A stretch of DNA of 64,000 nucleotides, taken from the NCBI GenBank assembly GCA_019637755.1, contig JAHBVC010000002.1, positions 186,001 through 250,000 on the forward strand, written 5' to 3'. Made by a program: the position numbers and the translations under genes. Positions within the stretch are counted from its first letter, which is position 1; the number at the start of each line of letters is the position of its first letter. The notes beneath the pieces are model-generated. The model was not told where the DNA came from. It did not search any database and saw nothing but the letters and a program-made list of their open reading frames with translations. Source of the DNA: Anaerolineales bacterium (GTDB lineage Bacteria; Chloroflexota; Anaerolineae; Anaerolineales; UBA11579). Below are positions 47,765-50,647 of the stretch, piece by piece.

Positions 47765-49555
<1,791 letters not shown>

Positions 49556-49581
49556 CACAATCCTCACAAGAATAAGTGCAA

Positions 49582-49662
49582 ACAAAAACGCCCGGTGCGA
49601 ATGCACCGGGCGAGAGCCAACCAGGCGGACCTAACGAGCCGCCAGGCAGGGGCCTCCCGCCC
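49582..49662 (-). promoter_or_regulatory. Transcription attenuator of aspS: antiterminator versus terminator
   Basis: Minus-strand strand A GGGCGGGAG (49654-49662) pairs fully with strand B CTCTCGCCC (49608-49616). Strand B shares CGCCC with the ascending arm of an intrinsic terminator, CGCCCGGTGC-ATTC-GCACCGGGCG plus TTTTTGTT (49581-49612). The two structures are mutually exclusive. A small hairpin, GGCGG...CCGCC, sits inside the antiterminator and holds the leader peptide stop codon. The terminator lies 26 bases before the aspS start. Confidence 0.8.
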
Positions 49663-49714
49663 GCTGGGGGTTATTGTCCAGATTATTGCTGTCCACAACG
49701 ATGGGTTGGAACAT
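49631..49714 (-). CDS. aspS leader peptide rich in Asp and Asn codons
   Basis: 27 codons plus TAG. The peptide begins MFQPIVVDSNNLDNNPQ and ends GPCLAAR. Codons 8-15 read GAC AGC AAT AAT CTG GAC AAT AAC, so two Asp and four Asn codons fall within eight positions. A perfect TATAAT lies six bases before the ATG, so the peptide would be read from a leaderless mRNA start. Strand A of the antiterminator begins at codon 18, just downstream of the Asp/Asn cluster, the arrangement expected for ribosome stalling control. Confidence 0.75.
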   Translation of the reverse strand: MFQPIVVDSNNLDNNPQRAGGPCLAAR

Positions 49715-49720
49715 ACGGGG

Positions 49721-49726
49721 ATTATA
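49721..49726 (-). promoter_or_regulatory. -10 box of the aspS leader transcript
   Basis: Minus-strand TATAAT; a candidate -35 TTGCTG lies about 19 bases upstream. The transcription start is predicted at the A of the leader-peptide ATG (49714). Confidence 0.65.
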
Positions 49727-49813
49727 GCATTAACAATTTAATCCCCAGCAAGGGTCCAGCGAGAAATCGCGCGTCTGCAGGCTTAACAGACACTTGACCA
49801 GGGCAAAAGCCGT

Positions 49814-50647
49814 CTAATCAAACCAAAAATAGCGCCAGCCCTCGCCAGCATCGTTCACCTGAAACCAGCCTGGCGTGGATTCCACGCGGCTCGGGCCGAG
49901 TAGAAGAATCCATGAATCATGGCTGATCATGCTGTGCTCGCCCAGTGGGTTATAGACCACGAGTTCACGTGCCCCAAAGTTATCGAGAATGAAGCGCGGC
50001 TGCTCAAAGAACAAATTGAACCCCGCACCTTTGGCTGCATAGAAATAGCGACTTATCCCCACCACCCCCGGTGCATAGTCTTGCCAGACTGCTGCCAAGG
50101 ACGCCGGATAGGCGCCATGCGCGGCATGGTACGCCTCGATAGCGTCCAACAGTTCAGCGCTATTGGCAATGCCACGCGCCCGGCTGGCTTGGGTGAGCGG
50201 CCCCGCCAGCATAAGCTGGGCGGCCAGCAGCGCCAGGGGTAACAGCGCCATGTACCGGGCCGCGGTTACCGCTTCCGCGGCACCCACGCCTGTGCGCAGG
50301 CGGGCAAGACGCTGTAGGGGCAATAGCGCTGCGATGGCGAAGGCAACGGCCAACAGCACGCCGCTCAATGCGTAAGCAGCCACGCACAGCAGCACCGCCA
50401 GCAGGCCAGCTGCCACCACGGCGGCCAGCGCCCAAGCGCCAGAGCGGGGCTTCGCACCGCGCCTTTCATATACCAGCCAGGCAATTCCGATCGGAGCCAA
50501 CAATACTGTGCCCCCCGCTCCCAATAGCTGCATCAGGGTGGACACTGGCACCGCTAGCGCATCATATCGCCCGGGAAGAAAGGGATAGAGCATGGCGGCG
50601 AGCAAGAGCGCCAATGTAATCAGCATGTGCAGGGATTGAATAGGCAT
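49814..50647 (-). CDS. Membrane protein of unknown function
   Basis: 277 residues. About five hydrophobic segments in the first 155 residues, then a soluble C-terminal domain (about 160-277). The start of that domain, SAELLDAIEAYHAAHGAYPASLAAV, resembles the helix after the pilin-like segment in type II secretion pseudopilins, where short conserved AYxxxxGxYP patterns occur, but the membrane part is not pilin-like. No catalytic motif. It lies between the tRNA gene and aspS with no partner. Confidence 0.7.
   Translation of the reverse strand: MPIQSLHMLITLALLLAAMLYPFLPGRYDALAVPVSTLMQLLGAGGTVLLAPIGIAWLVYERRGAKPRSGAWALAAVVAAGLLAVLLCVAAYALSGVLLAVAFAIAALLPLQRLARLRTGVGAAEAVTAARYMALLPLALLAAQLMLAGPLTQASRARGIANSAELLDAIEAYHAAHGAYPASLAAVWQDYAPGVVGISRYFYAAKGAGFNLFFEQPRFILDNFGARELVVYNPLGEHSMISHDSWILLLGPSRVESTPGWFQVNDAGEGWRYFWFD

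Follow-up and report, generated by a model that had tools for sequence, protein, structure and literature searches.

A putative leader-peptide attenuator that reads both Asp and Asn codons precedes aspS in Anaerolineae

The leader of aspS in an uncultured member of the Chloroflexota is very probably a ribosome-mediated (leader-peptide) transcription attenuator that turns aspS on when charged Asp- or Asn-tRNA is short. It lies in the window, the 64,000-nt stretch of DNA analysed here, in which aspS and all leader elements occupy the minus strand (Table 1). We further regard it as likely that the leader belongs to an Anaerolineae class of dual (Asp plus Asn) specificity, which in lineages lacking AsnRS reads both products of a non-discriminating AspRS, including the Asn-tRNA made by GatCAB, and which is retuned through its codons to Asn alone in front of asnA. 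An earlier note on this DNA had proposed attenuation by shortage of either tRNA. That reading is supported by conserved Asp/Asn frames and covarying stems, from which we infer translation of the leader, stalling of the ribosome and a change of readthrough upon Asp or Asn shortage.

Table 1. Elements of the aspS leader and the aspS gene; coordinates are positions within the 64,000-nt window.
Element	Position	Strand	Basis and remarks
Extended -10 promoter element, TGCTATAAT	49721..49729	(-)	Sequence; same or near variant before relatives' leaders
Leader frame, MFQPIVVDSNNLDNNPQRAGGPCLAAR, 27 codons and TAG	49631..49714	(-)	Sequence; probably leaderless, with +1 at the ATG or close beside it
Regulatory cluster, codons 8-15, D-S-N-N-L-D-N-N (2 Asp, 4 Asn)	49670..49693	(-)	Sequence; Asn/Asp clusters kept in relatives
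Antiterminator 5' arm (arm2, strand A), GGGCGGGAG, core GGGCG	49654..49662	(-)	Pairs with arm3; covariation
Linker hairpin GGCGG..CCGCC, leader stop codon in loop	49624..49643	(-)	Predicted, minimum-energy fold
Antiterminator 3' arm (arm3, strand B), CTCTCGCCC, core CGCCC	49608..49616	(-)	Overlaps terminator 5' arm
Intrinsic terminator stem-loop, CGCCCGGTGC-ATTC-GCACCGGGCG	49589..49612	(-)	10 pairs, loop of 4; covariation in relatives
U-tract after terminator, TTTTTGTTT	49580..49588	(-)	Sequence
Shine-Dalgarno-like GAGGA of aspS	49561..49565	(-)	Sequence
aspS, bacterial-type aspartyl-tRNA synthetase, 596 aa, His34/Gly86	47765..49555	(-)	TIGR00459, 746 bits (cut-off 374)

As is expected of an attenuator, a promoter and a short translatable frame stand upstream of the structural gene. 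The TATAAT of the extended -10 element occupies 49726-49721, and the ATG at 49714 follows six bases on, as had been noted earlier; a scan for a -35 element upstream of the leader found none that is strong. Codons 8-15 read GAC AGC AAT AAT CTG GAC AAT AAC, which confirms the two Asp and four Asn codons previously assigned to a 27-codon frame. Strands A and B had been described as perfectly complementary; their positions and their pairing hold, but the wording is slightly generous because one of the nine pairs is G-U. The overlap of strand B with an intrinsic terminator and its U-tract ahead of aspS was found as described. The 139-nt leader folds with -63 kcal/mol (z = -3.46), and none of 200 shuffled sequences is equally stable; chance is excluded as the origin of the leader and its structure. 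At the far end of the window, an FMN riboswitch (RF00050, 76 bits) occupies positions 47-166 of the minus strand.

The position of the leader ATG relative to the promoter is one that recurs across the genome of the window's bacterium (G000). In this genome, the pattern TATAATN{4,9}ATG occurs 120 times versus 10 for the backwards pattern, an approximately 12-fold excess. Among 100 sites listed, spacers of 6, 7, 8 and 9 nt account for 35, 29, 16 and 17 sites, with the histogram beginning abruptly at 6, and long frames open at most of the 30 sites that were read. Given this excess over the control, the abrupt spacer onset and the long frames, leaderless mRNAs that start at or next to +1 seem to be common in this bacterium, and a leader ATG six bases past TATAAT fits the genome-wide pattern.

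The leader is conserved well beyond the window. A protein search yielded 80 aspS loci, mostly from Anaerolineae, and a search of the genus yielded nine full-length aspS loci. About half of these 80 loci have a small frame densely set with Asn/Asp codons; that about half of the loci examined have no such leader counts against the attenuator model. The layout recurs where the relatives' AspRS is only 57-80% identical, in the order TGCTATAAT, small frame, Asn/Asp run (for example, NNNNDNAADD or NNDNNNNN), GGGCG arm, CGCCC arm, and GGGCG with a T-tract. Frames that open with ATG and have five or more Asn/Asp codons among eight precede aspS at 32 of 79 loci and are absent from all 79 reverse complements, and Asp plus Asn is the top scorer among all 190 amino-acid pairs in these upstream regions. 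Altogether, 36 clusters contain 161 Asn codons versus 1 Lys codon and 59 Asp codons versus 4 Glu codons; as the clusters were picked by Asn/Asp density, what counts as evidence is how Asn and Asp compare with Lys and Glu rather than the totals themselves. Both synonyms of each residue are used (AAT/AAC and GAT/GAC). Because Asn greatly exceeds Lys, Asp greatly exceeds Glu and both synonyms are present, the comparison argues that selection acts on the codons and not on A/T-richness. The cluster matches the downstream gene and is conserved as codons, although some relatives have weak clusters with two to four Asn/Asp codons, a point against the model.

The two mutually exclusive structures, the antiterminator and the intrinsic terminator, both exhibit compensatory changes. 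A 32-leader alignment misplaced arm2 where linkers are short, and a subset of it was used for the covariance model; pairs were therefore counted in an anchored, gap-free alignment of the arms from 35 sequences. In the antiterminator, 78.5% of the cells are paired compared with 70.7 +/- 1.1 in shuffles and at most 43% when the arms are slid, the covariation score is 0.256 versus 0.145, and both sides have changed in 45 cells versus 18.8, in each case against shuffles that ignore kinship. For the terminator, the same alignment gives 80.3% paired cells and a covariation score of 0.187 versus 0.077, again with shuffles that ignore kinship. Two positions of arm3 pair with arm2 in 29 and 22 of the 35 sequences and in the terminator in only 12 and 13. 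Because these positions pair with arm2 and are usually mismatched in the terminator, the antiterminator appears to be under a constraint of its own. The CGTTGGGCGAAGCC of arm2 is translated as R-W-A-K-P in one relative (L105) and as V-G-R-S in another (L055); read in two different codon frames, arm2 is evidently conserved as RNA and not as a peptide. The comparison therefore points to two layers of constraint, with the cluster kept as codons and arm2 kept as RNA. Small Asp/Asn frames and covarying stems conserved in related Chloroflexota are what the earlier note had proposed to search for, and its proposal passed this test.

How would these elements respond to the translating ribosome? In the relatives' leaders, the last Asn/Asp codon is mostly located 10-18 nt ahead of arm2, the stop codon falls in the interval separating arm2 from arm3, and arm3 usually starts 21-35 nt past the stop. 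These distances, together with folding by ribosome state, agree with the spacing of an attenuator, in which arm2 is free upon stalling and blocked when the ribosome is at the stop codon. With ribosome footprint lengths assumed from general knowledge, folding predicts a mean arm2:arm3 probability of 0.88 for a ribosome stalled at the last Asn/Asp codon and RNA made up to arm3, and a terminator probability of 0.98 for a ribosome at the stop codon. When the ribosome is stalled and the leader is present at full length, the predicted equilibrium fold favours the terminator (mean 0.65) over the antiterminator (0.32). Given this competition at equilibrium, the model requires a co-transcriptional order, in which arm3 pairs with arm2 before arm4 exists. 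Two observations count against the model: arm2:arm3 pairing is poor in two leaders (L084 and L090), and the antiterminator is predicted to form in the naked RNA of many leaders as well.

We propose that the transcript begins with the leader ATG or immediately beside it and that a ribosome would load on the near-leaderless end and trail RNA polymerase. When Asp-tRNA or Asn-tRNA is scarce, the ribosome would stall in codons 8-15, and arm2, about 10 nt past the last Asn codon, would be free to pair with arm3 once it is made. The arm2:arm3 helix would block the terminator, allowing aspS to be transcribed. When both charged tRNAs are plentiful, the ribosome would cross arm2 and reach the stop codon between arm2 and arm3; located in the loop, it would keep arm2 from arm3, and arm3 would pair with the 3' arm of the terminator, ending transcription. 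Both Asp and Asn would be sampled because, in the window's lineage, AspRS would supply both aminoacyl-tRNAs, with GatCAB acting after it in the case of Asn.

Does the AspRS of the window serve both tRNAs? His31 and Gly83 of Pseudomonas AspRS mark enzymes that charge both tRNA-Asp and tRNA-Asn, and His34 and Gly86 had been taken as the same mark here. Both residues are present, but all of the Anaerolineae AspRS examined have His34 and nearly all have Gly86, whether AsnRS is present or not, and the pair is therefore weakly diagnostic and separates no cases in this set. The claim of a non-discriminating AspRS is supported for the window's organism by gene content instead. A search for asnS gave nothing above the cut-off in any of the 11 genomes of the genus, the best matches in the organism's own genome being LysRS and AspRS themselves, while gatB is present in all 11 genomes and gatC and gatA in the own genome. 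Because the genus has GatCAB without AsnRS, AspRS would have to feed both tRNAs. AsnB is present, so free asparagine can also be made.

Several observations accompany this survey. The own genome and most of the genus have two gatB paralogues, only one of which is near gatC and gatA; the two stretches in the own genome (G000:C2 546500-552500, L119; G000:C1 1317500-1323500, L120) contain no match to the covariance model. The aspS frame of one genus member (L009, G010:C20 4468-6243) has one TAG stop, which is an assembly error or indicates a pseudogene. Genomes of family f3 (G114, G210, G321 and others), which have no aspS leader, encode proteins of about 440-500 aa that reach 240-258 bits against asnS, far short of the cut-off, and are perhaps archaeal-type AspRS/AsnRS.

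A covariance model built from 21 leaders was used to search 400 genomes of the phylum at an E-value of 0.01, E-values being rough, and gave 29 matches, of which 26 are directly before aspS, one is before asnA and two are before argC. Within the order, the model matches 64 of 151 genomes. One candidate (L133) was rejected as a leader, being the terminator after another gene. At 18 of the 80 loci aspS is followed by an AsnRS gene, and the leader is present at 16 of these. Among whole genomes, those with leaders may have AsnRS next to aspS, at another place or not at all, and the leaders contain both residues in each case. The earlier link between dual Asp and Asn codons and a non-discriminating AspRS thus stands for the window's genus but not where the same leader precedes an aspS-asnS operon, and a general rule that ties dual codons to the absence of AsnRS was rejected. 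Because both residues are found whatever the AsnRS status, Asp plus Asn codons suit either an aspS-asnS operon or a dual-serving AspRS. The window, from a genus with GatCAB and without AsnRS, would represent the case of an AspRS that serves both tRNAs.

At six aspS loci without a leader (L047, L052, L057, L063, L065 and L072), the 3' end of another gene lies just upstream; the gene upstream of such loci ends in an HRWRN-like motif and perhaps encodes a cupin-type regulator, suggesting other control. Upstream of argC (L167 and L168), an Arg-rich small frame (MLIFTAQAFPRRPRPPRTTGLVFKVA in L167) has a promoter-like site on one side and a terminator hairpin on the other. In this other family of the class, the argC leaders are likely to be attenuators that work through an arginine leader peptide.

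The asnA gene, which encodes asparagine synthetase A, provides a comparison of specificity. Only 9 of 399 genomes of the order have it, and in family f2 of the Anaerolineales all five copies have a leader (L164 of G130, L223, L224, L225 and L226), with cluster runs of NNNNNNNN, NNNNN, NNNNN, NNNNNNNNN and NNNGNNND; no leader was found upstream of asnA at L188 (G494) or of three family f3 asnA genes. The f2 cluster windows contain 33 Asn and 1 Asp codons before asnA versus 116 Asn and 42 Asp before aspS (Fisher p = 0.0013, kinship ignored). By this comparison, codon content follows the function of the downstream gene. The same leaders bear on the possibility that only Asn-tRNA is sensed, with the Asp codons incidental and AspRS regulated as a supply step for Asn-tRNA. 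We consider this unlikely. It draws support from an Asn:Asp codon ratio of about 3:1 and from the Asn-only asnA leaders of the same family, but it does not account for the presence of Asp in the clusters of 20 of 21 f2 aspS leaders versus one of five asnA leaders. Moreover, at L225 an Asn-only asnA leader is followed, just downstream, by a separate promoter and an Asp/Asn leader before aspS, and the aspS leader of L108 has three Asp and no Asn.

The sensing of both charged tRNAs also has to be weighed against readings in which neither is sensed through its codons. Arrest of the ribosome by the nascent leader peptide itself, rather than by the supply of charged tRNA, is improbable: poly-Asn/Asp peptides of like length do recur, but the order and number of Asn and Asp vary freely, synonyms alternate and the composition tracks the downstream gene. 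Still less probable is control of aspS by a T-box or another tRNA- or ligand-binding riboswitch. Chloroflexota do have T-boxes that control synthetase genes, and in two genomes they concern ileS and trp genes (PMC2494555), but the conserved feature here is a translated codon cluster at a fixed distance from the arms and not a tRNA-binding domain. The leader has no Rfam match at the gathering threshold and otherwise only chance-level matches; the Rfam T-box has none in the window at the gathering threshold, nor over 49450-49850 at a relaxed threshold. The Q-modified tRNAs are those for Asn, Asp, His and Tyr. Two of these four are read by the leader, but sensing of queuosine status is scarcely credible, given clusters without His codons and nearly without Tyr (one TAC) and asnA leaders that use Asn alone. 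A plain terminator with a chance frame, with aspS expressed constitutively through partial readthrough or another promoter, is hardly tenable against a frame, codons, geometry and covariation conserved across families.

Attenuation by shortage of either charged tRNA would add Asp and Asn to the residues sensed by leader-peptide attenuation and place this mechanism in the phylum Chloroflexota. It would also offer a natural specificity experiment, in which one RNA switch carries Asp plus Asn before aspS and Asn alone before asnA, even in one genome, and a genetic means of following how uncultured bacteria supply asparagine by the tRNA-dependent route. The leader frame apparently starts at +1 with no Shine-Dalgarno sequence, making first-ribosome loading directly testable. 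In the open-access literature, which leaves most subscription journals outside, we found no leader-peptide attenuator for aspS, asnS or asnA, or any in Chloroflexota; a computational screen in Shewanella has aspS in its list of predicted motifs in 5' UTRs but gives no leader peptide for it. The mechanism is classical; the sensed residues, targets, phylum and leaderless frame are new within the literature searched.

The proposed attenuator resembles those of trp, his, leu, ilv, thr and enterobacterial pheST in that a short frame contains regulatory codons matching what the downstream gene makes, the antiterminator and terminator are mutually exclusive, and the stop codon is placed so that a terminating ribosome blocks the antiterminator. 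It differs from them in sensing Asp and Asn, in targeting aspS, aspS-asnS and asnA, and, compared with the enterobacterial systems, in its phylum and in the apparently leaderless frame of the window. His-leader attenuators of hisS and hisZ in Firmicutes (PMC2965389, PMC9413887) likewise place a leader peptide ahead of an aminoacyl-tRNA synthetase gene outside Proteobacteria, but they concern another amino acid and another phylum, with no known shared sequence. In Clostridium acetobutylicum, aspS2-gatCAB is described as being under T-box control (Saad et al. 2012, 2013, as cited in PMC4206432). Both that system and the present one would make expression of a tRNA-dependent route to asparagine depend on how far its tRNA is charged; whereas the T-box RNA binds uncharged tRNA directly, the sensor in the Anaerolineae leader would be the translating ribosome.
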